Shown here in pieces: positions 3,517 through 60,314 of a stretch of DNA of 64,000 nucleotides. The notes under the pieces were generated by a model. That model was not told the DNA's origin and did not search any database. It saw only the letters and a list, made by a program, of their open reading frames with translations. Within the stretch, counting starts at the first letter, position 1. Every line of letters begins with the position of its first letter. The position numbers and the translations under genes were made by a program. Source of the DNA: Ahaetulla prasina (Eukaryota > Chordata > Lepidosauria > Squamata > Colubridae); contig NC_080544.1 of NCBI RefSeq assembly GCF_028640845.1, positions 55,961,211 to 56,025,210 of the forward strand, given 5' to 3'.

Positions 3517-5365
3517 CAGAAGTGACAATGAAACAGACAATGAAAAACCTCTTCTATATTATTGTCAAAAACCACGTTGCCATAATTTACATTTCTTTTC
3601 TTAATTAAAATCCAGGGTAAAATCTTATGGTATCTTTGCACTGTGTAATTAGTTATATCAGAATTTCAATAATAATAACTCACCATTAAGCTAAGAATAA
3701 TTTAAAGGTGGTTGCAAAACCTGTAACCTTCTGATACTGATGGATTAAGCATTCCATTCCAATTCGCCAGCATGGCTGCTGATAGAAGATGCTGTATATT
3801 TTCTTCAGCAACCTTTAGAAGGCCACAGATTCTCCCTCTCTGACCAGAAGAATTTGTTTAACCAAATGTGATATGAGGATTTTTGTTTAATATATGAGTT
3901 GATCCAACTGAGAGTTCTTTTATTTTTCATTCATTCTATAAAAGTATGACAAAGGATATGGTTTGTGTTCCATGAAAGCATGATAAAAAACCATATAGTG
4001 GATAGAAAAGAATTAGTATTTTTATTTTCCACACTGCCATTTTTAAAATACATCCTTACAGAAAGAAGTTGTAGTTTTCACAACAAAGCAACCAAATAAA
4101 CAGGTCCCATGGTACTCTAAAGACAAACACAATTATTTGTGACATATGTTTTGCTCAACTATTTCATCAGATGCTTTATCACATATGTCTTGATTGTGCA
4201 ATGGAGTGACTAAGGTGTATTTCAATATGCAAATTAGTAGTACACTGCTATTTAGGGAAAAGAGCTTATGATAGAGAAGAATTCTAAAAGCCAGAATTGG
4301 CAACAGCTACAGATATGTGTTTGTTTTGAATCTCCAACCTTTAAAATTGCTTTATGGTTGAAAACATTCCCATATTTATAGGAAAATATGTCTACTAAGA
4401 CTCCAAGATTTGCAGTAGCCACAGATAGGGAGCATATCAATTGTATCTTTTTACCCAGAAGGAACAAAAATATATTGCTGGAGTGGAAAAGCTGGCAGAT
4501 GAATACACTTCTAATTCATGAATATAGAAACTCCAATTAGAAGGCCTACGGAGAATGAGTGCATTTTCTAGTCATTCAAATGTATCGCGGTTTGTAGTTC
4601 TGTGATCAGTCAACTAAACAATGTACTTTATTGAGCTCTAAAAACCTCATTTAAATAGAACTTTGCATATGTGAGTGAGACTGCATTAAAATAATATGCT
4701 GTTTTGACTGAGCCCAGATTTAGGAACAGAAGGAAAATATTTCATCCATAACAGACTAAGCATCTCTTTTTGAAAGTAGGCATCCTGGCAATGTCACAAT
4801 ATTTAGTTTTATTGTTAAAATATATTTTCTTTGCTGAATGCATTCATTTTAATTTACTTTAATAAATTATAAAGTAATAGTATCGTACACTGATTGAAGG
4901 TTTCAAGAACTTTACTGGAAAGGAAGGAGACCGCTATTATAAATTCATGGTAAAAATTACTATTATTATGTTTACTCTTTTCCTTTTTTCATAGTTTTTA
5001 ATTAGTACCAGCACTAGACATAACAGGATAGAGTAGCCTTTTTCTTTAAGATCATCTTACAATATACTTACAAGAGTAGATATGGAATTAATAAATATAA
5101 ATCCCATGGAAGTAGAAAAGTAGAAAACAGTAATGCTAACACAGCATTATTAGGCTGAAAAATTACAGGCTTTTCTCCCCTTTGGTCTTGGTGGGATTTC
5201 AAGGTTTAAACAATAAAATCACTTCAAAGAGAAAGAGATACACAGAAAAGAACTAGAGTAGATATCTTAGATAGGGCTTCCACTCACTGTGAGAATAGCC
5301 CAAAAAACAAAACTAAAATTTTAGCAAATGCCATTGTTTTGCAGCCTATAAAATATACAATATGC
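3517..5365. other. Intronic sequence, nothing recognised
   Basis: AT-rich sequence without an identifiable exon or element. The minus-strand frame 4252-4467 has no domain. Confidence 0.5.
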
Positions 5366-6364
5366 CGCCTACAATTGACCGGATGACATGGCCCTGCATA
5401 TTAATTAATTATATCACAAGATGATTGAAAAGATGTGAAATTATATGGTTTTTATTTAGAAATGACAGATCTGGATAGGATACTCACAGGAACAGATAAT
5501 AAAATAATTTTAAAAATTTACAATTTTTAACTTAGTATTGAATTAGAAGAAGAGCAAGTAAAGGAAACAATGATAGCCAAAAAAAATTTAAATACTCAAT
5601 TGAATTATTAGACAAATGGCAACAGCTATGGGAAAGGAACTATAAACTAACAATGTCCACTGTATATAAAGAGAACCAATACAAAATGTTTTATAGGTGG
5701 CATATGCCACCCGAAAAATTGGAAAAAATGTTTTAAAATAAGTCAGCTAAATATTGGAAATGCCATCAGATACCAGGATTGTATTACCATATGTGGTGGA
5801 CATGTCCAGAAGCCAGAAACTATTGGATTAGAATTAAAACACGGTTAGAAGAAATGGTTCAACAACATATTGATTTAAAACCTGAGTTGTTCCTATTGGG
5901 TATCCTACCAGAGAAAATTAGTAAAGAATATATATATATTTGATTATACACGTAATAACTGCAGCGAGGACAGTATTTGCGCAAAGATCGAAAGCAGAGA
6001 AAATCCCTTCAGAAGGGGAAGTAATCAAGAAAATTTTAGACTGTGCAGAAATGAATAGATTGACTTTGATAATTAAAGAAAGAGAGGACACGGGATATTT
6101 CAAGATATGGGAACAATTTTACTATTGGTTAGAGAAACGATATAGATAAATGTATTAATAACAAACAAGAGAATGTTATAATAAATGAATTGTGGGGAGA
6201 ATGTTGTAACAAAGGAATGTAAAATATCAAGACAGGATGAAGATAGGAGGAGTAATAAGAAAAAGAAGTCACTGAAGAAACACCTAGATGACACACTGAA
6301 CGATTGATTATGTATTTTATGTTTTTTTGTTTATAAAATAAAAAACGTGGAAAAATATACATTA
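5366..6364 (+). mobile_element. L1 3'-end fragment, tandem unit A
   Basis: A 5'-truncated L1 carrying the C-terminus of ORF2. Readable pieces include IDRMTWP, a kMFYRWHMPPEKLEK segment, a cysteine/histidine stretch (YHMWWTCPEARNYWI), then a run to the stop after WLEKRYR near 6147, followed by an AT-rich 3' UTR ending in aaaacgtgg (about 6341-6350). One frameshift lies at the six-A run near 5726. It is repeated immediately downstream at ~99% identity. Confidence 0.85.
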
Positions 6365-7362
6365 TGCCTACAATTGACCGGATGACATGGCCCTGCATAT
6401 TAATTAATTATATCACAAGATGATTGAAAAGATGTGAAATTATATGGTTTTTATTTAGAAATGACAGATCTGGATAGGATACTCACAGGAACAGATAATA
6501 AAATAATTTTAAAAATTTACAATTTTTAACTTAGTATTGAATTAGAAGAAGAGCAAGTAAAGGAAACAATGATAGCCAAAAAAAATTTAAATACTCAATT
6601 GAATTATTAGACAAATGGCAACAGCTATGGGAAAGGAACTATAAACTAACAATGTCCACTGTATATAAAGAGAACCAATACAAAATGTTTTATAGGTGGC
6701 ATATGCCACCCGAAAAATTGGAAAAATGTTTTAAAATAAGTCAGCTAAATATTGGAAATGCCATCAGATACCAGGATTGTATTACCATATGTGGTGGACA
6801 TGTCCAGAAGCCAGAAACTATTGGATTAGAATTAAAACACGGTTAGAAGAAATGGTTCAACAACATATTGATTTAAAACCTGAGTTGTTCCTATTGGGTA
6901 TCCTACCAGAGAAAATTAGTAAAGAATATATATATATTTGATTATACACGTAATAACTGCAGCGAGGACAGTATTTGCGCAAAGATCGAAAGCAGAGAAA
7001 ATCCCTTCAGAAGGGGAAGTAATCAAGAAAATTTTAGACTGTGCAGAAATGAATAGATTGACTTTGATAATTAAAGAAAGAGAGGACATGGGATATTTCA
7101 AGATATGGGAACAATTTTACTATTGGTTAGAGAAACGATATAGATAAATGTATTAATAACAAACAAGAGAATGTTATAATAAATGAATTGTGGGGAGAAT
7201 GTTGTAACAAAGGAATGTAAAATATCAAGACAGGATGAAGATAGGAGGAGTAATAAGAAAAAGAAGTCACTGAAGAAACACCTAGATGACACACTGAACG
7301 ACTGATTATGTATTTTATGTTTTTTCGTTTATAAAATAAAAAACGTGGAAAAATATATACAT
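6365..7362 (+). mobile_element. L1 3'-end fragment, tandem unit B
   Basis: This is a second copy of the preceding 5'-truncated L1 end, offset by 999 bp at its start and 998 bp later. The 1-nt change is in the A-run (five A's rather than six), which keeps a longer frame, 6652-6846. Other differences are single bases, for example cacggg/catggg near 7087 and tttttgttt/tttttcgttt near 7325. The shared 5' truncation point and near identity argue for tandem duplication rather than two insertions. Confidence 0.85.
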
Positions 7363-8142
7363 TAAACACTACAATTTGGCAACTCCAAATCTCAACCAGC
7401 AAATGCTCTGTCTTACACATTGGAAAAAATAATCAGAACACTAAATACAAACTCGATGGACATTACCTTGTAGATGACCCTCACCCCGTTAAAGACCTTG
7501 GAGTTTTCATATCAAATGATCTAAGTGCCAAAGCCTACTACATCGCAAAAAAGGTTTTAAGAGTTGTAAACTTAATCTTGCGTAGGTTCTTCTCCAGAAA
7601 CATTACACTACTAACCAGAGCATATAAAACATTTGCTAGACCAATTCTTGAATACAGCTAGCCTGTCTGGAACCCATACCTCATTTCGGACATTAATATA
7701 ATTGAACGTGTCCAAAAATATTTTACAAGAAGAGTTCTCCATTCCTTGAATACAACAAAATACCTTATGCCACCAGACTAGAAATACTGGGTTTAGAAAA
7801 TTTAGAACTCCACCGCCTTCGATATGACCTGAGTTTAACTCATAGAATAATCTGTTACAATGTAGACTACTTCAGCTTCAATCACAACATTACATGAGCA
7901 CACAATAGATTTAAACTTAATGTTAACCGCTTCAATCTTGATTGCAGAAAATATGACTTCTGTAACAGAGTTGCTAATGCTTGGAACACACTACCTGACT
8001 CTGTGGTCTCTTCCCAAAATCCCCAAAGCTTTAACCAAAAACTATCTAATATTGACCTCACCCCATTCCTAAGAGGTCTGTAAGGGCGTGCATAAGAGCA
8101 CCAGCGTTCCTACCGTTCCTGTCCCAATGTCCCCTTTGATTA
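7363..8142 (+). mobile_element. Rex1/CR1-like LINE fragment (R1)
   Basis: The sense strand encodes broken pieces of a reverse-transcriptase C-terminus shared with the other copies here (L-G-N-S-K, DLGVFISND, RAYKTFARPILEYS, NKIPYATRLEILGLENLE, LPDSVV). It then enters the diagnostic 3' UTR start 'gggcgtgcataagagcac' near 8086. Frameshifts and an in-frame TAG (ctagcctg near 7660) show it is dead. The tail beyond about 8142 is not recognisable. Confidence 0.8.
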
Positions 8143-18404: not shown

Positions 18405-18850
18405 AACTATGTTCAGGATGTCTTTATGAATTTTGTTTCTTTGCTACATGGAAGAATTACTATAGGGGTGCTTTTGTAAGCCTGGATCAATGCATACCTT
18501 TTCAAAAATACTTAGAGACAAAAACTATGCAAAATTTAATTATCATTTTTGAATTTAACAGTTTAAATTAATATATTTTAAATTTAAAGATAATGAGCAA
18601 AAATTGTTTTTTCCCCCTCTTATTTCCAGAGAATTATTCATTTTTAGATAACCTCTTAATCATGTCAGAAGAATATCCAAACTATATCTGAATACCAAAA
18701 CCTATAATTAATATTTTCTACCGATATCTATTTCATTTCCTCACTTGATTAGGAAATGTATTGTAACAAAATTAGATATGTCTTCTTTGGATTTAATATT
18801 TGAATGTGTTACCAAGCTGATACATGTCTAAATATCTAAAACTCATGAGT
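18405..18850. other. Intronic sequence, nothing recognised
   Basis: AT-rich sequence between an L2-like LINE end and the start of the 1.36-kb tandem duplication. Confidence 0.45.
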
Positions 18851-20211
18851 GACATTTATTGGTATCCTATGCCTATAACCTCCTATAATTTTGATAATCG
18901 TTAGACTTATGGAATTGGCAATATCACTTAAACTTATATACTTTCTCATAGTGCTATACTCCTCTGGGCAGTTCTATTTTCAGTATATACCCTTATACTA
19001 GTGGGTAACTGTTGGCTTACTCTATATAATAATCAGTACTAAATAAACCTTAGTAAGTTAGGTTCACATATCATATTAAGCAACAAATCATGATATACAA
19101 GCAACAATGATAATTCATAGTTCACAAGTGAACTAGTCATTTGATGATATGAACTCTTTTCCATCATGCTACAATGTTTGTTTTTTTGTTTTTTGTTTTT
19201 TTTTGTTTACATTTATACCCCGCCCTTCTCCGAAGACTCAGGGCGGCTTACAATGTATAGGGCAATAGTCTCATTCTATTTGTATATATTTACAAAGTCA
19301 ACTTATTGCCCCCCCAACAATCTGGGTCCTCATTTTACCTACCTTATAAAGGATGGAAGGCTGAGTCAACCTTGGGCCGGGCTCGAACCTGCAGTAATTG
19401 CAGGCTTTGTGTTCTTAATAACAGGCCTTACCAGGCAGAGCTAAACCGGCCCTATGTTTGGCTATATTGTTCATGTAACCATATAAGTGACACAGTTATA
19501 TGAATTTCAGCTAGATAATATTTGATTTAGAGAAAGGGTTCAATGATGTGGAAAAGCTAGATATCATCAGACCCACCTGAATTATTGGGGTTTTCATTCT
19601 TTCACACAAATGCAAGTATTAATGCACATAGATACAGAAGATGCATAGAACATCTGTGGATAACACAGAGATTGGTTCTATTACATGTTTTACAAAATAT
19701 AGCACTCCTTCTTAACTTTGAGCCACTGCATTTTCTCCCAAGAATACTATTTTTTTCCTCTTGACAAAATCTCAAGAGAAAGAGTGGCTGGTAAAGTGGA
19801 GATTTAAACAAAGTATGTCTAGTTCTGATAAACATTTTAACCATTATATTAATATCTTGTGGCTTTGGGTTGTATAAAAAAGTAGCAGGCCACTACAATG
19901 TGTAGTGAACTTCATGCATAATTCATTGTTATTCTTCCTCTTCTAGGGGTAGAAAATTAGAATTAGAAAATTAGAAAGGAAAATGCTACTTCTCGGTGGG
20001 CTTTGGTACAATTTTTCAAGGCTTCAGGTTGCAAAAAATAAAATAGTTGGGGGTTGTGTGGTGTCTTACCTGGAATTTACCTGGAATTTCTAAAACTGGT
20101 ATGCTGACATAAGGTCATTTTACTATGATGAATTTCTATAAATCCTATGTTTAATTCAAGGCCTGATTCATTTTTTGATGTTTTAAATGGGAGAAAGTAA
20201 GGAAGAGGAGA
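18851..20211. repeat. Tandem duplication unit 1 (1361 bp)
   Basis: It starts at gacatttattggtatcctat and ends at ggaagaggaga, where the same start recurs at 20212. It carries one minus-strand SINE (19181-19453). The copies differ by a few substitutions and a 14-nt deletion, so the duplication is recent. Confidence 0.9.
19181..19453 (-). mobile_element. tRNA-derived SINE with a CR1/L2-like tail (S1)
   Basis: On the minus strand the head reads GGCCGGTTTAGCTCTGCCTGG...GGTTCGAGCCC, giving A- and B-box-like pol III promoter elements. A body (ggttgactcagccttccatc, ggtaggtaaaatgaggaccc) follows, with a 3' end ccgccctgagtcttcgg...gggcgg resembling the L2-like LINE tail. The LINE presumably mobilises it. 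Candidate 7-bp flanks atgtttg lie at 19174-19180 and 19454-19460. Confidence 0.85.
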
Positions 20212-21564
20212 GACATTTATTGGTATCCTATGCCTATAACCTCCTATAATTTTGATAATCGTTAGACTTATGGAATTGGCAATATCACTTAAACTTATAT
20301 ACTTTCTCATAGTGCTATACTCCTCTGGGCAGTTCTATTTTCAGTATATACCCTTATACTAGTGGGTAACTGTTGGCTTACTCTATATAATAATCAGTAC
20401 TAAATAAACCTTAGTAAGTTAGGTTCACATATCATATTAAGCAACAAATCATGATATACAAGCAACAATGATAATTCATAGTTCACAAGTGAACTAGTCA
20501 TTTGATGATATGAACTCTTTTCCATCATGCTACAATGTTTGTTTTTTTGTTTTTTGTTTTTTTTTGTTTACATTTATACCCCGCCCTTCTCCGAAGACTC
20601 AGGGCGGCTTACAATGTATAGGGCAATAGTCTCATTCTATTTGTATATATTTACAAAGTCAACTTATTGCCCCCCCAACAATCTGGGTCCTCATTTTACC
20701 TACCTTATAAAGGATGGAAGGCTGAGTCAACCTTGGGCCAGTAATTGCAGGCTTCTGTGTTCTTAATAACAGGCCTTACCAGGCAGAGCTAAACCGGCCC
20801 TATGTTTGGCTATATTGTTCATGTAACCATATAAGTGACACAGTTATATGAATTTCAGCTAGATAATATTTGATTTAGAGAAAGGGTTCAATGATGTGGA
20901 CAAGCTAGATATCATCAGACCCACCTGAATTATTGGGGTTTTCATTCTTTCACACAAATGCAGGTATTAATGCACATAGATACAGAAGATGCATAGAACA
21001 TCTGTGGATAACACAGAGATTGGTTCTATTACATGTTTTACAAAATATAGCACTCCTTCTTAACTTTGAGCCACTGCATTTTCTCCCAAGAATACTATAT
21101 TTTTCCTCTTGACAAAATCTCAAGAGAAAGAGTGGCTGGTAAAGTGGAGATTTAAACAAAGTATGTCTAGTTCTGATAAACATTTTAACCATTATATTAA
21201 TATCTTGTGGCTTTGGGTTGTATAAAAAAGTAGCAGGCCACTACAATGTGTAGTGAACTTCATGCATAATTCATTGTTATTCTTCCTCTTCTAGGGGTAG
21301 AAAATTAGAATTAGAAAATTAGAAAGGAAAATGCTACTTCTCGGTGGGCTTTGGTACAATTTTTCAAGGCTTCAGGTTGCAAAAAATAAAATAGTTGGGG
21401 GTTGTGTGGTGTCTTACCTGGAATTTACCTGGAATTTCTAAAACTGGTATGCTGACATAAGGTCATTTTACTATGATGAATTTCTATAAATCCTATGTTT
21501 AATTCAAGGCCTGATTCATTTTTTGATGTTTTAAATGGGAGAAAGTAAGGGAAGAGGAGAGACA
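20212..21564. repeat. Tandem duplication unit 2
   Basis: Near-identical second copy of 18851-20211, offset 1361 bp, falling to 1348 bp after the indel in its SINE. The outer breakpoints share only 'gaca' (18851 and 21561), pointing to microhomology-mediated or replication-based duplication. Confidence 0.9.
20542..20801 (-). mobile_element. tRNA-derived SINE, duplicated copy lacking the B box (S2)
   Basis: Copy of S1 within the second duplication unit. A 14-nt deletion after 'ccttgggcc' removes the ggctcgaacc core, which is the B box on the minus strand. This copy would therefore be expected to lose pol III promoter activity. Confidence 0.85.
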
Positions 21565-25058: not shown

Positions 25059-25659
25059 CATCTATCTATTATCTCAGGCTGCAGTGCTCATGAACTTTAA
25101 TACAAAGCTTCCAGAAGCTGCTGTTATTGCAGTTTCAAACTTTGAGAAAGTTCTTTCTTAAACAGATTTTTTTAATCTTTAAAAAGAAAGCTTTCAAAAA
25201 ATGGCCAGGTGCTGATTTAAATGCTTTATCTTATGGGACTCATGCAAATGTTAATCATTCAATAGAGTTTAACATCTCTGATGAATTACCATCTTTATTT
25301 CTGACCTTCCTGTCAGAACAGATTTGCAAATGGTAGATGAGTCATGACCCATAAACCCAAATGCAAAATCCAAATTGAAATATTGAAACATTAGTCCCAT
25401 TGGCCTTAAAAAGAGTTCAAAACCATCTTCTATTTACAGTTCAATGAAATATAGATATTAGTAAATATGAGTAAGATATAAGGCTACAGTTTTAAATTGG
25501 CAATTTTGAATGTATTTTCTCAGATCGTATAAACTACTATATATAATCATATAAAAAAGGACTGAAAATTTCCTTAAAGTACATCAGAATTTCTCAAAAG
25601 TGATGAGAAAGAGGAAGTTGCAGATTCAGGGTTTCTAAATGGCTAGAGAAGTTGAATCC

Positions 25660-25923
25660 GTGGTGGCTCAGGCTGTAAGATAGCCTGTTATTAAAACACA
25701 GCAGCCTGCAATTACTGCAGGCTCGAATCCCACCAGGCCCAAGGTTGACTCAGCCTTCCATCCTTTATAAGGTAGGTAAAATGAGGACCCAGATTGTTGG
25801 GGGGGACAATAAGTTGACTTTGTAAATATACAAATAGAATGAGACTATTGCCTTACACACTGTAAGCCGCCCTGAGTCTTCGGAGAAGGGCAGGATATAA
25901 ATGTAAATAAAAAAATAAAAAAA
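25660..25923 (+). mobile_element. tRNA-derived SINE (S3)
   Basis: Sense orientation: head tggtggctcaggctgtaaga, B box GGCTCGAATCCC, body caaggttgactcagccttcc, and the tail ccgccctgagtcttcggaga ending in A-rich aaataaaaaaataaa. Same family as S1 and S5. Confidence 0.85.
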
Positions 25924-26477
25924 TCTGTCACTCTGGAATAGGGAAAACAAAAATCCCATCATAGTTGACTTTGACCATAAATGACTGATAAACTGGAATA
26001 CCATCAGAGTAACAATATTGAAAACTCTGATCATGAATCGGGGACCCAAAGGAAGACCATTCTATTCTATTAAAAAGTTAAAATTCAGAACTGGTTCCTA
26101 AGACACGTACCCCTAAGAATATTCTTTTCTGTAAAAGAACAGGCTAGTAATGCCTAAAATCTTAACCTAGAGAGAAATATGATGTGTTCAGATATATCAA
26201 ATTATGCCATCAGGTCCAAAAGAACCAGCACTGATATAAAGTATTGGGACTTGACCATAAAATTATAATTCAGTTTTTGACGAAGTGCCATTTCAGTTAT
26301 ATGAGCTACCCCAAATCCTAAGTGAATGAAACGAAAAGGCAATTGCAAGTAAATAAGGAACCACTGGGAAAAAGCATCTTTGTCAAGATGGTGTTATTTA
26401 AAAAGGAAACAAAAGGAAAGAATTCAAGGAATTTTTTTTCCAGCAAAGGTCAAAGAAAGGCATCTGGGCAGGGTTTT

Positions 26478-26550
26478 TTTTATTATTATTATTTCTTTGT
26501 TACAACAGTATACACAAACAATTGTCATAGATAAAACAACATGTCTTGAA

Positions 26551-26552
<2 letters not shown>
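26478..26552 (-). mobile_element. Rex1-like LINE 3' UTR scrap (R3)
   Basis: Matches the end of R4 (28746-28852): tttctttgt-acaacagtatacac, aacaattgtcatagataaaa, catgtcttgaaga. It is cut off by the TA array and the Penelope-like insertion. Confidence 0.75.

Positions 26553-26618
<66 letters not shown>
26553..26618. repeat. (AT)n microsatellite
   Basis: About 33 dinucleotide units abutting the 3' terminus of the Penelope-like element. The poly Tyr-Ile frames on both strands are artefacts. Confidence 0.95.
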
Positions 26619-26623
<5 letters not shown>

Positions 26624-27566
26624 TTCTGAGGTTTTCACGGGTGTTTGTATGTAGGTCTTTGGTTGTTGGGTTTTCTCCGTGTAAAATTGGAAGTGTCTTG
26701 GCGACGTTTCGGAGTCTCATTCGTCATCTTCAGGCTTCACTTCGTGCTTCTGGGAGCAATGTGTGATCGCAGCTGTTTCTTCCTTTTAACTGCTAGTGGG
26801 GTTTGAACTGATTGGGTGGGAGCTTGGCTGTGCTCTGATTGGATGGGGTTTTCTGTGCTCTGATTGGCTGGGGTGTGTCCTGTGTTGGTGGGGGCTTGGT
26901 TGTGCTCAGTCTAATCTGTCCTGCAGGGGGTTTTGAGCTGGTGAGCTGCATAGCTGTTGTTTGGCTTTGTGGTCGTGCTACATCTTCATAGTGGGTGTCA
27001 GTCTGCTGCATGTATGGATTGGAGGGGTTTGAAATGGCTAATGTTGCAGCTGCGGTCTGGCTTCTGGTCCTTGGTCGTGCTTCCTGATCAGTGTGGGTTT
27101 GGGTCTGCTTTCTGGGTGGATGTGTGGTGGTGACATCCTGTGTGGACCTCGTGAGTGTGGGTCTGGTGTCATTCCTCGTGTTAGGGACACGTTTGTCAAT
27201 AAGGGCAGGTTTCCAAATGGCTGGTAGGCGGGAGGTATCATCTCGTTTGTTCATGCTGTGTGGGCGTTTTTCTATCTCGATGGCTTCTCTGATTATTCTG
27301 TTGTTAAAGTGTTCAGTTTTGGCGATAGTTCTGGTCTTTTTAAAGTCAATATCATGTCCTGTGACTTTAAAGTGTTGGACCAGGAAGAAGTTGGTTCCTC
27401 TTTTTGAATGAGTTCTTGTGTTCTTCAATCGTGCACTTATTCTTCTGTTGGTTTGTCCAATGTATGTGGTGGGGCAGGCGGTGCATGGGATTTCATATAC
27501 TCCTTGATTTTCTAACTCAATTTTGTCTTTGGGGTTTCTTAGGGTGGGGGGTATTTTTTGGTTTGT
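26619..27566 (-). mobile_element. Penelope-like element, 5'-truncated
   Basis: Minus-strand retroelement segment with a GIY-YIG endonuclease frame, followed by a terminal repeat (aagcctgaagatgacgaatg, cgaaacgtcgccaagacact, tccaattttacacgg, accaaagaccta, ccgtgaaaacctcagaaaac) that runs directly into the AT array. The reverse transcriptase part is absent. The same terminal sequence recurs at 58965-59603. Confidence 0.85.
26793..27566 (-). pseudogene. GIY-YIG endonuclease region of a Penelope-like element
   Basis: An open frame of about 257 codons. The N-terminal part has GVYEIPCTACPTTYIGQTNR, with GVY at 27495-27503 and YIG at 27456-27464, then RLKNTRTHSKRG, LVQHFKVTGHDIDF, and NRIIREAIEIEKRPHSMN with RLPAIWKPAL. 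This order is the GIY-YIG domain fused C-terminally to the PLE reverse transcriptase. A Pro/Thr/Gln-rich tail follows (PPTQDTPQPIR...). The RT domain is missing, so it is a fragment, although the endonuclease part has no stop. Confidence 0.8.
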
Positions 27567-27601
27567 CCATCAAGACAGCATTCTGCACAAACCAAAAAAT
27601 A
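27552..27601. repeat. 15-bp perfect inverted repeat at the PLE truncation point
   Basis: tattttttggtttgt (27552-27566) is mirrored by acaaaccaaaaaata (27587-27601) around a 20-nt loop. It lies exactly where PLE coding similarity stops and duplicated host sequence (ccaccatttcag) begins. Confidence 0.85.
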
Positions 27602-28359
27602 TCCACCATTTCAGTAAGAAGAACATGAAAAATTAAAAGTACAGTTCTATTACCAATTTACATTCAGGGTAATATTTCATTATTGTCACAGCTGACTGAA
27701 TATCAGTCAGGAAGGAAAAATAAAAGCTCATCAAATAAATTATTCAATTAAAATCCGAACATATTTGCTGAATAGAGTTTTCTTTTGAACAACAGGCAAG
27801 TAACTCTCATTACTGGAATTAACAATGCAGCTGATGAAGCTGGAAAATAATGTTTGCAAAAGGAAAGAGATTGTATCTCTCTTTGACAAAAATTACTCTC
27901 TGGCTAGACATATGGTCTACATAGGACATAAATTAGTTCCAGCTGGAATTGGAAACAATGTTTGTTTAGCCCTTCAACAATTCATCATTTGGGGGGGAAA
28001 AGCTTCATCATTCTGAACAATAGCTGCAATGTTTTAAACTTGTAATTTTAAATTTGTTTTCAGATTCAATAAAATTTATGGCTTAGAAGTATCTTGACAA
28101 AGGCTTAAAAAGAGTTCAAAACCATCTTCTATTTACAGTTCAATGAAATATAGATATTAGTAAATATGAGTAAGATATAAGGCTACAGTTTTAAATTGGC
28201 AATTTTGAATGTATTTTCTCAGATCGTATAAACTACTATATATAATCATATAAAAAAGGACTGAAAATTTCCTTAAAGTACATCAGAATTTCTCAAAAGT
28301 GATGAGAAAGAGGAAGTTGCAGATTCAGGGTTTCTAAATGGCTAGAGAAGTTGAATCCG

Positions 28360-28519
28360 TGGTGGCTCAGGCTGTAAGATAGCCTGTTATTAAAACACAG
28401 CAGCCTGCAATTACTGCAGGCTCGAATCCCACCAGGCCCAAGGTTGACTCAGCCTTCCATCCTTTATAAGGTAGGTAAAATGAGGACCCAGATTGTTGGG
28501 GGACAATAAGTTGACTTTG
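28360..28519 (+). mobile_element. tRNA-derived SINE, 3'-deleted (S4)
   Basis: Duplicate of S3 that stops after 'aataagttgactt'. The junction with 'gaccataaaattataa' shows that the 3' half and flank were deleted across a shared gactt(t) motif. Confidence 0.85.
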
Positions 28520-28740
28520 ACCATAAAATTATAATTCAGTTTTTGACGAAGTGCCATTTCAGTTATATGAGCTACCCCAACTCCTAAGTGAATGAAACGA
28601 AAAGGCAATTGCAAGTAAATAAGGTAACCACTGGGAAAAAGCATCTTTGTCAAGATGGTGTTATTTAAAAAGGAAACAAAAGGAAAGAATTCAAGGAATT
28701 TTTTTTCCAGCAAAGGTCAAAGAAAGGCATCTGGGCAGGG

Positions 28741-28747
<7 letters not shown>

Positions 28748-28792
<45 letters not shown>
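28748..28792. repeat. (ATT)n microsatellite
   Basis: About 15 trinucleotide units where unit 1 has only four (26481-26492). It is the expandable tail of the LINE. Confidence 0.95.
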
Positions 28793-28852
28793 TCTTTGTC
28801 ACAACAGTATACACAAACAATTGTCATAGATAAAACAACATGTCTTGAAGAA

Positions 28853-28875
28853 TATATATATATATATATATATAT
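28853..28875. repeat. (AT)n microsatellite in unit 2
   Basis: A short AT array inside the LINE 3' UTR, at the site equivalent to 26553-26618, where the PLE sits in unit 1. Confidence 0.9.
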
Positions 28876-30453
28876 GAGTAAAAAATATACATCAACTATA
28901 TTAATTTGATATAATGAAGGGAACAATAGGACAGGAACGGTAGGCACTATTGTGCTCTTATGCATGCCCCTTATAGTCCTTTTAGGAATGGGGTGAGGTC
29001 AATAGTAGACAGTTTTTGGTTGAAGATTTTGGGATTTTGAGTAGAGACTATGGAGTCAGGTAATGAGTTCCAAGCATTAACAACTCTGTTACAGAAGTCA
29101 TATTTTCTGCAATCAAGTTTGAAGCGGTTGACATTTAGCTTGAATCTATTTTTTGCTCTTGTAATATTGCGATTGAAGCTGAAGTAGTCTTTTATAGGAA
29201 GGATATTGCAATAGATGATTTTGTGTGTTAAACACAGGTCATGTCGAAGTCGACGGAGTTGTAAGTTTTCTAATCCCAGGATTTCAAGTCTGTTGGTATA
29301 AGGTATTTTGTTGTTTTCGGAGGAGTGAAGAACTCTTCTAGTGAAATATTTCTGGACTCGTTCTATTGTATTTATGTCAGAGATGTGGTATGGGTTCCAG
29401 ACGGATGAGCTGTATTCAAGAATAGGTCTGGCAAATGTTTTGTATGCTCTAGTTAGTAGTGTAGAGTTTTTAGAAAAGAAGCTGCATAAAATTAGGTTTA
29501 CAACTCTTAGGGCCTTTTTTGCTATGTAGTTGCAGTGGGCTTTGGCATTAAGGTCATTTGATATGAGAACTCCAAGATCTTTGACAGGGTGGGGGTCATC
29601 AGTTAGGTAATGTCCATTAAGTTTGTAATTTATGTTAGGGTTCTTTTTTCCAATATGTAATAGTTCTCTCAGCCTCCTTTCAGTTTTTCTCTCTCATCTC
29701 TTTCGATGTATAGTGAGGACAGTAATTTGAATAATAAGGACAATAGTTTGAGTTCTTTGATTTACTTTCTGCTTCATCGTTACAATATTTTAAAACTTTC
29801 CAAAGTTTAGAATTTTCTAACGATTTGGGAATTTTAGGAGTTTTGAATTTGCATTTTCATGTTTATTATTACAGTTAAATGTTGTGCTTTTCACAAAACA
29901 TTCTACATTTGATTAGTTTATTATTCAGCTGCTTTTAAAAATCAAGACCACCATTTCAGTAAGAAGAACATGAAAAATTAAAAGTACAGTTCTATTACCA
30001 ATTTACATTCAGGGTAATATTTCATTATTGTCACAGCTGACTGAATATCAGGAAGGAAAAATAAAAGCTCATCAAATAAATTATTCAATTAAAATCCGAG
30101 CATATTTGCTGAATAGAGTTTTCTTTTGAACAACAGGCAAGTAACTCTCATTACTGGAATTAACAATGCAGCTGATGAAGCTGGAAAATAATGTTTGCAA
30201 AAGGAAAGAGATTGTATCTCTCTTTGACAAAAATTACTCTCTGGCTAGACATATGGTCTACATAGGACATAAATTAGTTCCAGCTGGAATTGGAAACAAT
30301 GTTTGTTTAGCCCTTCAACAATTCATCATTTGGGGGAAAAAAGCTTCATCATTCTGAACAATAGCTGCAATGTTTTAAACTTGTAATTTTAAATTTGTTT
30401 TCAGATTCAATAAAATTTATGGCTTAGAAGTATCTTGACAAAGGCTTAAAAAG

Positions 30454-30663
30454 AAAAGGCCAAATGGTTACTAGGTATTGACTTTTTTCAGGATTACAAT
30501 GTCAGATCCTGCATCTGAGCTTTGTGTGTTTTGCTAAGCCATCATGGGTTTAGCTGTCATTTGTTAAGCCTTAGCGGCTTGATAAAGTTGAACCAAATTG
30601 GATATAAAAGCTGCTATGCCTATGTTTATCTTCCTGCTAATGTCAATAAAAATATAGACCAAC
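30454..30663. other. Spacer between the duplication and the solo LTR
   Basis: No supported feature. It ends in the 5-bp LTR flank ccaac (30659-30663). Confidence 0.4.
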
Positions 30664-39639: not shown

Positions 39640-40305
39640 GAGTGCAATAGCACTTAGACCGGTTCAGACCAGATCTCCTGATGTAGTAGCGATGGCGGCC
39701 GGTGGTTTAGAGAACTGGTAGCAAAAAATCCCTGCCCCCCCATGCCCAGCTGAGCCGCCCATGATCATCAGAGGGTTTTTTTTTTTAACTTTTAAAAGCA
39801 TTTTTTCTTTGGCCAAAAAAATGCTTTTTAAAGTTAAAAAAAGCCTCTGACAATCGTGCTGCTCAGCTGGGATCATCAGAGCCTTTTAAAAGCATTTTTT
39901 CTACAACCTCTTTGGCCGAAGAGGTTGTAAAAAAATGCTTTTAAAAGGCTCTGGCCTTTTAAAAGGCAACTCAGTTGGGATCACCAGAGCCTTTTAAAAC
40001 CATTTTTTCTACAACCTCTTTGGCTGAAGAGGTTGTAGAAAAAATGCTTTTAAATGTAAAAAAAAAGTTGACCACGCCCACCCAGTCACATTACCCCCAA
40101 CCAAACCACGCCCATAGAACCAGTAGTAACAAATTTTACATTTCACCACTGACTTAGACATATACTGTCCCATAGCACTTTATAGCTCTCTGTCAGCACT
40201 TTATAATGTCAGTATATTGCCCCCAACAATCTGGTCCTCATTTTACTGACGTCGGAAGGATAGGAAGCTAAGTCAACTTTGACCAGTCAGGATCAATGAT
40301 ATCTG
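39640..40305 (-). mobile_element. Older SINE/LINE-tail repeat interrupted by a MITE
   Basis: Two parts, 39640-39659 (gagtgcaatagcacttagac) and 40160-40305 (atatactgtcccatagcact..ttgcccccaacaatctggtc..gaagctaagtcaac), read as one element split by 39660-40151. Its right part resembles the tgcccccaacaatctgggtc block of the tRNA SINEs here. Confidence 0.65.
39660..40151. mobile_element. Hairpin-rich hAT-like MITE
   Basis: 492 bp bounded by a perfect 8-bp duplication, acttagac (39652-39659 and 40152-40159). The right end CACCACTG is a typical hAT terminus; the left end (CGGTTCAG) matches it poorly. Inside are three successive long inverted repeats (39787-39841, 39879-39953, 39986-40055); the last two form a ~108-bp direct repeat. 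No coding capacity. Confidence 0.7.
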
Positions 40306-41188
40306 CAAGCACATCTTATGTTTTCTATTGAAGAAAGCTTGAATATATACATACTATATATATATATATTATATATATATATATAATAATATATATTTTA
40401 GAGAAATAAATTCAGGAAGTTTATATTTGCTTTCATACATGCATAGACAAAAACACAAACATTTGTTGTTTGGTGACATTTACAGAAACAGATCTGCCAA
40501 AATGTGAAGCAATTTTTCTGCCACTTACTCTGTCAGTGCTCTAAAAAGAATGTTTTTTTATAGATCTAAGAGAGTCCATAAAGCTGGAGTTAAGCTAACC
40601 ATTACACAAGACTTAGAGTAAATCATGTTTATTTGTTATCTCTTCATTTTTCTCCCCTTGCTCATATTAAAGAAGACTTTTTTCTTTTTACAGAAAGGTT
40701 ACCTTTTTGCGGCTTCTGAAACACTAAATTACTCACAGATATAAGAAAATGTTTAGATTTAGTTGTGATAATTTTAAGAAACTGCTACTTATTTTGCCCT
40801 GAGACCCACAGAAGTTCTTCAAAATATCTATTCCACTATAAATTTGGCATTCAGCCAAGTCCAATAAACATTACCACTAGGTAAATGTAAAAGTATATGC
40901 TTACAAACTTGTTTTTCAAATGTATGTCTGCTTTATTATTATTTTTTTGACAGTTGAGTATAAAATGAGTGTACTAGATATTTGGGGGGAGTTTGTTCAA
41001 TATATGCAATGCTTAATGTATAAATAAAACACAAATTACACATAGGAATAAATAGTAAAAATACTATTACTATTATATATAGTAAAAATACAATTAAAAT
41101 CAAAAGAAAATTAAAATTACAAGTTAAATAAAAAAAAATCCTGCTGCCAATTAAGAAATGGTGGTGGGGAATTAGTTTTTGTCATCTT
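40306..41188. other. Intronic sequence with a short AT-rich palindromic patch
   Basis: (TA)n-like, partly palindromic sequence at about 40348-40396. Otherwise nothing recognised. Confidence 0.45.
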
Positions 41189-42135
41189 TTTTTTTTTGTC
41201 ACAACAATGTACACAAGCATCAACATAAAATAACTACATATCATATAAGCATATATATGAGCAAAAGTATGCAATAACTATATTAATTTGATATAATGAA
41301 AGGAAACAATAGGACAGGAACGGTAGGCACTTTTGTGCTCTTATGCACACCCCTTATAGTTCTCTTAGGAATGGAGTGAGGTCAATAGTAGACAGTTTTT
41401 GGTTAAAGCTTTTGGGATTTTGAGAAGAGACCACAGAGTCAGGTAGTGTGTTCCAAGTGTTAATAACTCTGTTGCAGAAGTCATATTTTCTGTAATCAAG
41501 TTTGAAGCGGTTAACATTAAGTTTAAATCTATTGTTTGCTCTTGTATTATTGCGATTGAAGCTGAAGTAGTCTTCAACAGGAAGGACATTGCAATAGATG
41601 ATTCTATGAGTTAAGCACAGGTCTTGTCAGAGTCGGCGGAGTTCTAAGTTTTCTAAACCCAGGATTTCAAGTCTGGTGGCATAAGGTATTTTGTTGTTTT
41701 CAGAGGAATGGAGAACTCTTCTTGTAAAATATTTCTGGACATGTTCAATTGCGTTGATGTCAGAAATGTGGTATGGGTTCCAGACAGGTGAGCTGTATTC
41801 AAGAATAGGTCTAGCAAATATTTTGTATGCTCTGGTTAGTAGTGTAGAGTTTTTGGAAAAGAAGCTAAGCAAAATTAGGTTCACAACTCTTAGAGCCTTT
41901 TTTGCAATGTAGTTGCAGTGGGCTTTGGCACTTAGATCATTTGATATGAAAACTCCAAGGTCTTTAACAGGGTGGGGGGTCATCTGTAAGGTAATGTCCA
42001 TCAAGCTTGTACTTAGTATTTTGGTTCTTTTTTCCAATATGTAAGACTGAGCATTTGCTGGTTGAGATTTGGAGTTGCCAAGTTTTAGACCAATTGGATA
42101 CAAATTCTTAAGGTACTTAAAATACTGGTACAAAA
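41189..42135 (-). mobile_element. Rex1-like LINE 3' portion (R5)
   Basis: Minus strand. The main open block 42133-41627 encodes DLGVFISNDLSAKAHCNYIA, SKNSTLLTRAYKIFARPILE, NPYHISDINAIEHVQKYFTR and NKIPYATRLEILGLENLELR, followed by a stop and the last ~90 residues in another frame (41589-41365). The 3' UTR and end (tttgacaaaa-like; here ttttttttgtcacaacaatg on the plus strand) are at 41189-41364. This is the C-terminal half of a non-LTR reverse transcriptase, inactive. Confidence 0.85.
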
Positions 42136-48258: not shown

Positions 48259-48721
48259 TTGCTGTTGCCTTCTTCATAGGGCTCAGAGAGAAAGGGACTG
48301 GCCTAAGGTACACATTAACTGACTAGAACTCATGGTCTCCTTGTTTCTGGCTCTCTATCAATATTCATACACTATCTGATGATACATGGAAGCTTGGGAT
48401 ATAATAGGAATGAGCAGTAAGGGGAGTGAACTCATTAATGAAATGAATAAATGAAATAGATATGTTGTATGTATGGTGGAATGTAATCTGGATTCCCAGA
48501 GGGGAAGCAGCAGCAAAACAACAAAATTTTTGCCCAACTAAAGCAACTAGTTGAATTACTACAGTTTTACTCTGATAATCATTAAGGAGGAAGAAGTTTA
48601 AAACAGATCCTCCCCAGTGTTTACAGGGAATATATCTGTAGTTATGCAAATAGTTGCTTTAGTTGGACAACATTTCTGTCTATAGATACAGTAGAGGAAC
48701 AATAAAAGAAACTTATTTTAT
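48259..48721. other. Intronic sequence, nothing recognised
   Basis: Spacer between two LINE copies in opposite orientation. Confidence 0.4.
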
Positions 48722-50405
48722 TATTTATTTATTTATTTATTTTGTCACACAGTATATATGAGTGTAAGCATGAATTAACTATACAATATATAAGTATATA
48801 TATAAGTATGAGTATGTAATAACTAAATTAATTTTTGTTTGTTTGTTTACATTTATACCCCGCCCTTCTCCGAAGACTCAGGGCGGCTTACAGTGTATAA
48901 GGCAATAGTCTCATTCTATTTGTATATTTTTACAAAGTCAACTTATTGCCCCCCCAACAATCTGGCTCCTCATTTTACCTACCTTATAAAGGATGGAAGG
49001 CTGAGTCAACCTTGGGCCGGGCTCGAACCTGCAGTAATTGCAGGCTACTGTGTTCTTAATAACAGGCTTTTACCAGCGTGAGCTAAACCGGCCCCTGTTG
49101 AATATAAAGAAAGGAAACAATAGGACAGGAATGGTAGGCACTCTTGTGCTCTTATGCACATCCCTTATAGACCTCTTAGGAATGGGGTGAGGTCAATAGT
49201 AGACAGTTTTTGGTTGAAGATTTGGGGATTTTGAGAAGAGACCACAGAGTCAGGTAGTGCATTCCAGGCATTAACAACTCTGTTACTGAAGTCATATTTT
49301 CTTCAATCAAGATTGGAGCGGTTAACATTAAGCTTAAATCTATTGTGTGCTCGTGTATTGTTGCAACTGAAGCTGAAGTAGTCTTTGACAGGAAGGACAT
49401 TGTAATAGATGATTCTATGAGTTAAACTCAAGTCATGTCGAAGACGGCGTAGTTCTAAGTTTTCTAAACCCAGGATTTCAAGTCTGGTGGCATAAGGTAT
49501 TTTGTTGTATTCAGAAGAGTGGAGAACTCTTCTTGTCAAATATTTCTGGACACGTTCAATTGTATTGATGTCTGAAATGTCGTATGGGTTCCAGACAGGT
49601 GAGCTGTATTCAAGAATTGGTCTAGCAAATGTTTTATATGCTCTGGTTAGTAGAGTAGTGTTTTTGGAGAAGAAGCTACGCAAGATTAGGTTTACAACTC
49701 TTAAAGCTTTTTTTGCGATGTAGTTGCAGTGGGCTTTGGCACTTAGATCATTTGATATGAAAACTCCAAGGTCTTTAACAGGGTGAGGTTCATCTGTAAG
49801 GTAATGTCCATCAAGCTTGTACTTAGTGTTTAGTGCTTAGGGGTTCTGCTATATTAGTGGAAAGCTTTTTTAAGAAGTAAGCACATAGTCCATCAGGTCC
49901 AATAGATAGGGATGGTTTCAGTTTGTGAAGAGCTTTTTCAACATTATCTTCCGTGAAATCTATATGTGTTAGGTCATTGTACTCATTGTTGGTATGATCA
50001 GGGAATGTCTGGTATAAGCCATCGCTGTTAACAAAGACTGAGCCAAAGAATGTGTTAAAAAGGTTAGCTTTAACTGTTTTATCATTATATTCTTTGCAAT
50101 TAGATTCTTTTAGTGGTGGGATGGATCTCAAGTCTTTGAGTTTGTTGTTCACAAAATTATAAAAAGCACAATTGGAATTTGTGTGCAGAAGGTCTTCTTC
50201 TTGCTTGGTGTGATAATTGGTGCATTCAGTTTTTATTTGGTTGCATATATTTCTGTAGCGGTTTTTGAAATTTGCTACATAGCCCTTTTTGTTTCTTCTC
50301 CAAAGTGATTTTCTTTTTGGATTGCAGCTTTTTTATTGATATGGGTAATTTGTTTTAAACTACTCAGAAGTAACTCTTCATTTCTTTCTTGGTTCCTTGG
50401 GGATC
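48722..50405 (-). mobile_element. Rex1-like LINE, longest copy (R7), with a nested SINE
   Basis: Minus strand. A TTTA tail and gtcacacagtatat end at 48722-48834 are interrupted by SINE S6 (48835-49096), and the 3' UTR resumes at 49097. The coding remnant runs from 49183 to about 50405. The 5' part (50152-49823) has an RT N-terminal stretch (FTEDNVEKALHKLKPSLSIG, PDGLCAYFLKKLS). It joins directly to the C-terminal half near 49840, so the catalytic centre of the RT is deleted. Confidence 0.85.
48835..49096 (-). mobile_element. tRNA-derived SINE (S6) nested in LINE R7
   Basis: Antisense copy: tttacatttataccccgccc..., ttgcccccccaacaatctgg, and the promoter head ending gctaaaccggcccc. It splits the LINE 3' UTR between '..aactaaattaat' and 'ttgaatataaag', so it inserted after the LINE. 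Confidence 0.85.
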
Positions 50406-58272: not shown

Positions 58273-58868
58273 ATGGTGCAAAAGAAAAGGTTCATGTGGA
58301 AAGAACAATAGTACAGACACCAATATATGGGAGTGGTGGAATGTGATACAATTTAAATTAAATTGCATCTTTAAGTTAAAGCAAAAGTAATCATTGATAA
58401 TATATGTAGGGCTTGCCTTAATATCACATTTGAAAACTCATGTGCTGATTCAAAATTTTCAGAATCGGCTAGAAAAGACTTTATACTTTTTGGTACCTGA
58501 AGATACCTTCAGGCTTTTATCCTTTCTGTGAATTTTGGAGAATGTGCTATGATTTGAATGACATTCTCTAGTCTTTTCCTTCTTTTGTCTTGTGTTTAAT
58601 GTGATAATGATCAAAGGAAATGCCAGAGGAAGAGAGAGTGTTTCTCACTTTTTTGCCTCCTTTGGCCTTTCTTGTCCTCGGTTGCTGCCTCTGTTTACCA
58701 TCACTCTATTAATGACTGTGGGCTTTTGTCAAGGAAATCCATGTTTCAACAGCTTTCAATAGAAAAAAAAATGGGGCACTTCAGTATAACTCATAATGTA
58801 CCTTTAAAAAAATATAGTATCGCACACAGTCAAAAATAAAAGGTATATGTATAGACTGTTACAGAAAT
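58273..58868. other. Intronic sequence, nothing recognised
   Basis: Spacer between the L1 and the next LINE tail. Confidence 0.4.
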
Positions 58869-58964
58869 TTTATTTATTTATTTTATTTATTTATTTGTCA
58901 TAACATTATATACTGTATAAGCATAAGCATGAAATAACTATATGATATATAAACATATATATAT
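58869..58964 (-). mobile_element. Rex1-like LINE 3' end (R8, left part)
   Basis: A TTTA tail, tttgtcataacattatatac, agcataagcatgaaataact and a TA tract match the 3' UTR of R7. It is cut by the PLE-derived palindromes and resumes at 59604. Confidence 0.8.
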
Positions 58965-59203
58965 ATAGGTCTTTGGTTGTTCGGGTTTTCTCCCGTGTAA
59001 AATTGGAAGTGTCTTGGCGACGTTTCGACGAAGTCTCTTTCGTCATCTTCAGGCTTCAGCTTCGTGCTTCTGGGAGCAATTGCTCCCAGAAGCTGAAGCC
59101 TGAAGATGACGAATGAGATGAAACGTCGCCAAGACACTTCCAATTTTACACGGAGAAACCGAACAACCAAAGACCTATATACAAACACCGTGAAAACCTC
59201 AGA

Positions 59204-59206
<3 letters not shown>
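58965..59206. mobile_element. Penelope-derived inverted repeat 1
   Basis: Left arm 58965-59080 and right arm 59081-59196 are PLE terminal sequences facing each other, centred on gggagcaattgctccc (59073-59088). Each arm carries aggtctttggttgtt / cttggcgacgtttc / catcttcaggcttcagc or its complement. The right arm continues into caccgtgaaaacctcagaaa before the TA array. Confidence 0.88.
59019..59052 (-). ncRNA. Hammerhead-ribozyme-like core in a PLE terminus (minus)
   Basis: The minus strand reads CTGAAGA, then a one-base bulge, a 6-bp hairpin GACGAA/TTCGTC, then GAAACGTC. This matches the CUGANGA - stem II - GAAA scheme with a very short stem III and a GUC cleavage triplet. PLE termini are known to carry minimal hammerheads. 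Stem I pairing is weak and the bulge is off-consensus, so activity is uncertain. Confidence 0.45.

Positions 59207-59288
<82 letters not shown>
59207..59288. repeat. (AT)n array between the two PLE palindromes
   Basis: About 41 dinucleotide units. The opposite-strand Tyr-Ile frames are artefacts. Confidence 0.95.
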
Positions 59289-59291
<3 letters not shown>

Positions 59292-59603
59292 TCTTTGGTT
59301 GTTGGGTTTTCTCCCATGTAAAATTGGAAGTGTCTTGGCGGCGTTTCGTGAAGTCTCATTCGTCATCTTCAGGCTTCAACCGTGCTTCTGGGAGCAATGT
59401 GTGATCGCAGCTGTTTCTTCCTTTGCTTCTTCCCAATGCTGCGATCACACATTGCTCCCAGAAGCTGAAGCCTGAAGATGACGAATGAGACTTCGTCGAA
59501 ACGTCGCCAAGACACTTCCAATTTTACACGGGAGAAAACCCGAACAACCAAAGACCTATATACAAACACCCGTGAAAACCTCAGAAAACAAATATATATA
59601 TAT
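59287..59603. mobile_element. Penelope-derived inverted repeat 2
   Basis: Left arm 59287-59411 and right arm 59438-59562 are inverted PLE termini around a 26-nt spacer (tgtttcttcctttgcttctt...). The arms extend further into the element (tgtgatcgcagc) than in palindrome 1. The right arm runs into cacccgtgaaaacctcagaa, then TA repeats at 59591-59603. Confidence 0.88.
59472..59505 (+). ncRNA. Hammerhead-ribozyme-like core in a PLE terminus (plus)
   Basis: CTGAAGA at 59472-59478, stem II GACGAA (59480-59485) with TTCGTC (59492-59497), GAAA at 59498-59501, then CGTC. Same architecture as the minus-strand copy at 59019-59052. The equivalent site in the 26619 element has a shortened stem (gactccgaaac) and looks broken. 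Confidence 0.45.
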
Positions 59604-59705
59604 AATCATAAGTATGTAATAACTACATGAAATTGGATACAATCAAAGGGAACATTAGGACAGGAACAGTAGGCCCGTTGGTGCTCTTATGCACGCTCCT
59701 TGATA
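59604..59705 (-). mobile_element. Rex1-like LINE 3' UTR (R8, right part)
   Basis: atcataagtatgtaataact, gggaacattaggacaggaac and gctcttatgcacgctccttg continue the 3' UTR split at 58964. No coding part remains. Confidence 0.8.
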
Positions 59706-59743
59706 CACGTGGATTAGTTAAATAGAATATAGTTCCTCTATCC

Positions 59744-59973
59744 CAACCATGTCAAACACACGGCCTGTGGGCTGAATCCAGCCTGTGATAGGCCCCTAGT
59801 TGTTTCATGTGGCCTTTCCAGAGACACTGAGGCACTGGCCCATGCCGCCCCAGCCCTGGCTCAACCCGGCCCCACCCATCCAATCAGCCACAATGACCAG
59901 GCCATGTCTCCCCATGCCAAGGGCAAGCAAAATCCCAATACAACCTGCAGTGGGATCAATTTTGATACCCCTG
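59744..59973. mobile_element. hAT-like MITE, CAGGGGTGTCAA-TIR family, copy 3
   Basis: Ends CAACCATGTCAAACAC and TTTTGATACCCCTG, with a perfect 8-bp duplication ctctatcc (59736-59743 and 59974-59981). At 230 bp it is the longest of the four copies; the interior is GC-rich and non-coding. It lies only 182 bp upstream of the SorCS exon acceptor. Confidence 0.88.
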
Positions 59974-60155
59974 CTCTATCCCTTTCCATTTAGAAGACCA
60001 TCTTTGCTTTGTCTACATTTGGATGGCTATGTATAGCTATATGGAGCCCACTTAAATAATCTTTCACAACAGTGATTTTCTAGACATTTCAGAATGTTTG
60101 TTTTACCTTTTTCTTGTTTCAAATTCCAGTTCCTCACTTTTTTTTATCTGTACAG

Positions 60156-60314
60156 ATTATGTTGCTTACGGATCCTGAGATTGAGAGCAGCTTGCTGATC
60201 AGTTCTGATGAAGGAGCCACCTATCAAAAATACAGGTTGAACTTCTACATCCATAGCATGCTCTTTCACCCTAAGCAGGAGGACTGGATTTTGGCGTACA
60301 GTCAGGATCAGAAG
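60156..60314 (+). CDS. SORCS1: Internal exon of a SorCS-family VPS10-domain receptor (likely SORCS1)
   Basis: The exon encodes 53 residues (phase 0 at both ends) of the VPS10 beta-propeller of a type I membrane sorting receptor; SorCS proteins traffic neuronal receptors and bind growth factors. Seen directly: a pyrimidine-rich tract ending in TACAG at 60151-60155, a donor GTTAGT at 60315, the segment LTDPEIESSLLISSDEGATY with an Asp-box (SSDEGAT), then FHPKQEDWILAYSQDQK. The open frame extends beyond both splice sites by chance (60114-60341), so the exon limits come from the splice signals. From memory, the NFYI...DWILAYSQDQK wording fits SORCS1 better than SORCS3, but the two paralogues are close. 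No neighbouring exon was recognised, so the gene has very long introns here. Confidence 0.85.

Follow-up and report, generated by a model that had tools for sequence, protein, structure and literature searches.

How does a genomic insert arise that consists of paired Penelope-like element (PLE) termini facing each other, and does such an insert spread by itself? The question is raised by positions 58968-59589 of a 64,000-nt stretch of the Ahaetulla prasina genome (RefSeq assembly GCF_028640845.1, contig NC_080544.1, forward strand, 55,961,211 to 56,025,210; hereafter the window, in whose numbering all positions are given), where two head-to-head pairs of PLE termini stand in series. The original prediction for this locus proposed that these palindromes might be units that spread by themselves. 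We found both palindromes to be real, and consider them probable by-products, without coding capacity, of PLE integration; one would have been inserted in the TA tract bordering the other, and both lie in a TA tract of the 3' untranslated region (UTR) of a long interspersed nuclear element (LINE).

Architecture of the insert and the related PLE copy

The two pairs were recognized by inspection of the sequence, an inverted-repeat listing of the window (the longest 25 of 122 repeats), Tandem Repeats Finder (TRF), blast and alignment of the four arms, and their folds exceeded chance (Table 1). Palindrome 1 consists of arms L1 and R1, which meet at a CAATTG centre with zero spacer. Palindrome 2 consists of L2 and R2, and a scan for perfect hairpin arms left a loop of 26 nt unpaired at its centre. 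This loop corresponds to the 26-nt spacer described previously, of which merely the 13 nt of the junction lack a PLE match; the TA array thought to join the palindromes is likewise present, with a length of 83 rather than 82 bp. The PLE match of L2 extends to position 26786 versus 26773 for R2, a difference of 13 nt on the upstream side of the PLE. After R2 come a short TA tract and the remainder of the LINE 3' UTR. The predicted RNA folds of palindrome 1 (-166.7 kcal/mol, z -22.5, with none of 200 shuffles as stable) and palindrome 2 (-217.4 kcal/mol, z -28.1, none of 100 shuffles) agree with the earlier expectation that both units would form long hairpins if transcribed. An Rfam scan of 58700-60000 at E up to 10 gave 25 matches, none of which reached its gathering score and 20 of which were to microRNA models; a microRNA identity was dropped and the matches were read as an effect of the long hairpins.

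Table 1. Positions of the insert, its flanks, the related PLE copy and the neighbouring exon in the window.
Feature	Positions	Strand	Basis
LINE 3' UTR, left flank, ending in TA tract	58886..58964	+	joined-flank alignment
L1, inverted PLE terminus, pLTR (pseudo-long terminal repeat) and apparent open reading frame (ORF) start to +79/+85, without tail	58968..59079	-	sequence, arm alignment
R1, direct PLE terminus with tail, several small deletions	59080..59206	+	sequence, blast, arm alignment
AT array, (AT)41.5, linking both palindromes, 83 bp	59207..59289		TRF, 100% matches
L2, inverted PLE terminus, without tail	59290..59424	-	blast, arm alignment
Junction of palindrome 2, 13 nt, unmatched in PLE copy	59425..59437		gap between blast ends
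R2, direct PLE terminus with tail	59438..59589	+	blast, arm alignment
Tail of R2, +80 to +112 from ATG	59557..59589	+	in neither left arm (L1, L2)
LINE 3' UTR, right flank	59604..59701	+	joined-flank alignment
5'-truncated PLE copy, partial endonuclease frame 26793-27569	26619..27602	-	blast, ORF, protein matches
Perfect inverted repeat, 15 bp, loop 20 nt, at head of the PLE copy	27552..27601		hairpin-arm scan
Exon of SorCS-type VPS10 receptor gene, AG...GT bounded	60156..60314	+	SorCS2 (6ffy) E 2.8e-14; Pfam Sortilin-Vps10 28 bits, under 33-bit cut-off

The identity of the arms as PLE termini, already proposed, was supported by blast: all four match the terminal ~165 bp, at the 3' end, of a PLE copy at 26.6-27.6 kb with 88-95% identity (TA stretches included). 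With at most 3 mismatches allowed, the window contained a 22-nt core of the terminus five times (expected 0.00), four times in the palindromes and once at 26689-26710. Of 204 candidate proteins, 54 matched the partial endonuclease frame of the PLE copy at E <= 0.001. The top match was from a lizard, Phrynocephalus forsythii (54% identity over 75%), 2 of the next 4 belonged to snakes (Pituophis, Ahaetulla), and insect or unnamed metagenome proteins made up much of the remainder. The frame itself showed no Pfam match up to E 0.1 and no PDB match up to E 1. The P. forsythii protein carries a GIY-YIG domain (Pfam, 25 bits versus a cut-off of 22.6), and it is via the 26.6-kb copy and this homologue that the palindromes relate to Penelope/Poseidon-type PLEs with a GIY-YIG endonuclease. 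Since their blast matches are confined to the terminus, downstream of the endonuclease frame of the 26.6-kb copy, the palindromes have no endonuclease or reverse transcriptase part, as the original prediction had stated; by blast and translation, an ORF for these parts is absent from both, and at most an ORF start is present. Judged from their sequence, the palindromes are non-autonomous PLE derivatives, not whole elements.

The insert occupies a native TA tract of a LINE 3' UTR, because the flanks, when joined, align across the joint to another LINE copy of the window (41187-41355; 139 of 177 positions, 79%). They also align over shorter spans to the LINE copies at 28852-28972 and 48713-48834. 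Thus, the part of the original prediction stating that a LINE 3' UTR was split stood; its label for the LINE, Rex1-like, is a presumptive one that we share, as no search named the LINE. Both palindromes are flanked by TA repeat, within which a target-site duplication is unreadable. An AT-rich target was seen for all three PLE inserts found in the window, each of which borders a TA tract. The 26.6-kb copy does so at its 3' end only, where (AT)33 follows at 26553-26618 (TRF), and a neighbouring duplicate has the tract without the PLE; on the 5' side of the copy, ~1.05 kb including LINE sequence is absent relative to the duplicate and no TA tract was seen. Related LINE 3' ends, presumably CR1/Rex1-like, are located at 7369-8142, 28853-29660, 41235-42044 and 49098-49831, some with TA tracts, and the LINE 3' ends of the window are potential PLE landing sites.

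The 26.6-kb copy is itself part of a direct duplication (25405-28113 and 28104-30454, 97-99.5% alike in the aligned pieces) in which the PLE is present in one copy, whereas at this TA tract the other has the ~1.05 kb that includes LINE sequence. The junction of the duplication has a short shared sequence. This could be a genuine tandem duplication or two haplotypes in a row.

End points and tails of the arms

Within R2, a frame begins at ATG 59478 and is open through the tail (MTNETSSKRRQDTSNFTREKTRTTKDLYTNTRENLRKQ...). This is apparently the start of the PLE ORF, and positions in the PLE comparison were counted from this ATG. No homologue of the R2 ORF start emerged from two protein searches, one with a short query and one with the initial 45 residues of a longer translation. 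The left arms stop after GACC, at +79 in R2 numbering, or at up to +85 because TATATA follows in the PLE and the flank is TA; equally, the first 6 bases of the R2 tail (TATATA) can be assigned to the left arms. The right end of R2 is at +112, directly before the TA tract. Raw inner points, shifted by indels, are +79 (L1), +77 (L2), +70 (R1) and +74 (PLE copy), and raw outer points, measured to CTCAGAAAA, are +101 (R1), +111 (R2) and +106 (PLE copy). In the alignment, L1 and L2 have one common end position, and R2 and the 26.6-kb copy have a common outer end, of which R1 falls short by a few bases. The resulting tail of 27-33 bp lies between two end points, as in PLEs, at the low edge of the 30-40 bp expected.

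These end points resemble those of a PLE studied biochemically. According to the passages of PMC11167929 drawn on here, a purified Anolis carolinensis PLE (Poseidon PAc) cleaves AT-rich DNA and extends both strands; the positions from which its reverse transcription starts most often are +111-118 of the ORF, and two internal start sites bound the sequence that makes up its 30-40-bp tail. Here too, the tail is found between two end points, the outer being at ~+112, next to an AT-rich target. Unlike the palindromes, PAc was examined in vitro and in the form of tandem repeats, and ORF-less palindromic genomic inserts do not appear in the part of PMC11167929 considered. In Adineta vaga, the parts of PMC3846280 considered describe an inverted 5' pLTR of Pen2a_Av that is 37 bp shorter than the full direct pLTRs, an optional tail of ~31 bp, and palindromes at inverted junctions that are called common. 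The shortened inverted pLTR in head-to-head position, the optional tail, the palindromes at inverted junctions and the AT-rich simple targets are all seen in the present locus; in contrast to A. vaga, where, in those parts, the inverted pLTR stands beside an ORF or captured DNA, nothing lies between the pLTRs here. PMC8969392, as far as drawn on, also counts short extensions at the 3' end, along with inverted pLTRs, among the peculiar features of PLE copies. Among the open-access titles and abstract openings listed, none concerned ORF-less palindromic PLE units in reptiles.

An inverted head is a further common property of the PLE inserts. When the window was scanned for perfect inverted repeats of at least 13 bp with loops of at most 40 nt (low-complexity arms excluded), four places were positive. 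Two are the palindromes, one is the 26.6-kb PLE copy at its head, and the fourth, at 39.8-40.05 kb, is an unrelated foldback region. As a control, ten Markov-1 sequences as long as the window gave a single inverted-repeat arm in total. All three PLE inserts found in the window therefore have an inverted head. The foldback (39794-40054) is duplicated, with perfect arms of up to 24 bp; it was unmatched by the PLE insert in blast, and we take it to be MITE-like (miniature inverted-repeat transposable element).

Origin of the palindromes

If the palindromes are by-products of integration, the PLE protein of an autonomous element, presumably acting as a helper in trans, would have cut the AT-rich target on both strands, whose 3' ends would each have been extended on pLTR-containing RNA (two-strand priming). 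On the bottom strand, synthesis would begin at the outer internal site, at ~+112 of the ORF, and yield the right arm with its tail; on the top strand it would begin at the inner site, at ~+79, and yield the inverted left arm without a tail. The two short cDNAs would then be joined head to head. This would have happened on two occasions, with a 2-nt AT overlap at the joint of palindrome 1 and 13 nt unmatched in the PLE copy at that of palindrome 2, and we infer that one unit was inserted after the other, in the TA tract adjoining it. The arm structure, common end points, TA context and empty LINE site are directly visible in the DNA, and a different start site for each strand would account for the constant asymmetric ends, with L1 and L2 sharing the inner end and R2 and the PLE copy the outer. 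Two-strand priming explains both these ends and the unlike arms within each palindrome, the latter being expected because the two strands would be copied from different RNA templates.

Comparison of the arms bears on this reading and on its competitors. The closest pair, L1 and R2, belongs to different palindromes (105 of 106 aligned bases identical, plus a 7-column gap). R1 and R2 have a 7-nt deletion in common, at which L1, L2 and the PLE copy carry 7, 5 and 6 nt, respectively. By a GGG/GG difference the PLE copy goes with R1, and by the CCCAAC state it goes with L2. These markers conflict, and therefore no single arm history is supported; the 7-nt deletion is the sole hint, from the arm sequences, that left and right arms may have been inherited as a unit. 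The differences between the arms speak against a simple fold-back artefact of sequencing; this candidate was dropped for that reason and because the arms stop at the ends of the element.

Several points weigh against two-strand priming. The likeness of L1 and R2 is not predicted by it. In the in vitro work of PMC11167929, as far as considered, no difference in start site was apparent between the strands. The comparison of R2 with PAc is one of published positions, not of aligned sequences, and the R2 frame as the putative PLE N-terminus is based on position and on this comparison, because protein searches gave no homologue. Besides, TATATA stands at the inner end, which could therefore be determined by annealing with the TA target, without a second start of reverse transcription. 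Finally, the passages of PMC3846280 drawn on favour self-priming of one cDNA for Penelope, which also produces palindromes. In this snap-back process, one cDNA or an antisense transcript would fold back and copy its own end, and the left end would be joined via TATATA microhomology. It would explain the zero-spacer centre of palindrome 1, and both the foldback in the head of the 26.6-kb copy and the TATATA found in the PLE exactly at the left-arm ends are in its favour. We regard it as possible yet rather doubtful for this locus, since one template should give initially identical arms, whereas R1 and R2 are without the 7 nt seen in some form in L1, L2 and the PLE copy, and L2 covers 13 nt of the PLE that are absent from R2. 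The choice between two-strand priming and self-priming is one that we infer. Neither needs a palindrome that spreads by itself.

Self-spreading, as originally predicted, was not borne out: published inverted tail-less pLTRs, the reverse transcription starts of the Anolis element and the inverted head of the 26.6-kb copy all fit a by-product. In the form of a palindromic non-autonomous family copied as a unit by the PLE machinery, this idea is improbable. It is suggested by the presence of two adjacent units on one plan and by the 7-nt deletion in R1 and R2 only, as if inherited with left/right polarity, and palindrome 1 could be palindrome 2 minus its centre. On the other hand, the centres of the two units differ, the GGG/GG and CCCAAC markers group the arms otherwise, and the plan is already explained by known PLE anatomy. 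The 22-nt core also had no exact match in viral_contigs or genome_contigs, a result of little weight for an animal repeat as these are viral and prokaryotic collections and the search may leave out near records. It is more doubtful still that the head-to-head pLTR pair is a heritable element, whose palindromic RNA, with a fixed tail-less left arm and a right arm having the tail and the 7-nt deletion, would be re-inserted whole into TA tracts by PLE protein, the units becoming chained through TA arrays.

Local rearrangement or misassembly, in which the first unit would have been duplicated or inverted to give the second, is also very unlikely. The near identity of L1 and R2 would be consistent with it, and several near-identical direct duplications in the window suggest that the assembly or the locus may be duplication-prone. 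Yet the palindromes end at PLE end points and do not run into the flanks, substitutions and indels separate the arms, and the flanks close into an intact LINE UTR.

Two further classes were rejected. Being PLE termini whose ends are asymmetric, the arms are unlike those of a DNA-transposon MITE or foldback element (a target-site duplication being unreadable in the TA repeat). A retrozyme was considered as well. By eye, CTGAAGA...GAAACGTC is present at the ATG, a candidate for the hammerhead motif of a PLE ORF start; the 25 Rfam matches (E up to 10) included no hammerhead family. Metazoan non-LTR retrozymes, in the part of PMC7229834 drawn on, are small and non-coding, like the palindromes, and are suggested to be moved by PLEs, but they consist of tandem repeats that carry canonical type I hammerheads, whereas each unit here is a single inverted pair. 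The inverted rather than tandem arrangement and the Rfam result led us to reject this class.

If two-strand priming is true, the locus would be a clean genomic footprint of the in vitro activity of the Anolis PLE, with left arms marking the inner start of reverse transcription, right arms the outer, and no ORF in between. The number of such minimal head-to-head inserts across the genome would be informative on how PLE integration is completed. On its own, this locus adds little to the published anatomy of Penelope and is a tidy but ordinary example.

Gene context and other duplications

The palindromes are located ~550 bp upstream of the SorCS-type exon, on the same strand, and presumably within an intron of this gene. 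Older papers on Drosophila virilis reportedly describe inverted Penelope repeats. In the portions of PMC1431729 (2006) considered, three closely spaced inverted pairs of transposable elements in introns of D. virilis fosmids were all Penelope; at least one of them, the pair in toy, was predicted by mfold to form a hairpin, processing into short double-stranded RNA was suggested, and the mean Penelope fragment was 199 bp on the chromosome studied. The present pairs are similar in being inverted, hairpin-capable and presumably intronic, and different in their host; in those portions, end points and tails were not analysed. Given the sense-strand and presumed intronic position, a hairpin in the SorCS-type pre-mRNA is plausible, along the lines of the idea in PMC1431729. 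Nothing on inverted Penelope pairs was found in the part of PMC12910113 (2026, D. virilis) considered.

Elsewhere in the window, two further near-identical head-to-tail duplications were observed. The copies at 18847-20215 and 20208-21564 differ by 4 substitutions and gaps of 1, 1 and 14, and those at 5350-6375 and 6352-7376 by 6 substitutions and gaps of 2, 1, 3 and 1. Both (18847-21564 and 5350-7376) reflect either the assembly or recent tandem duplication.
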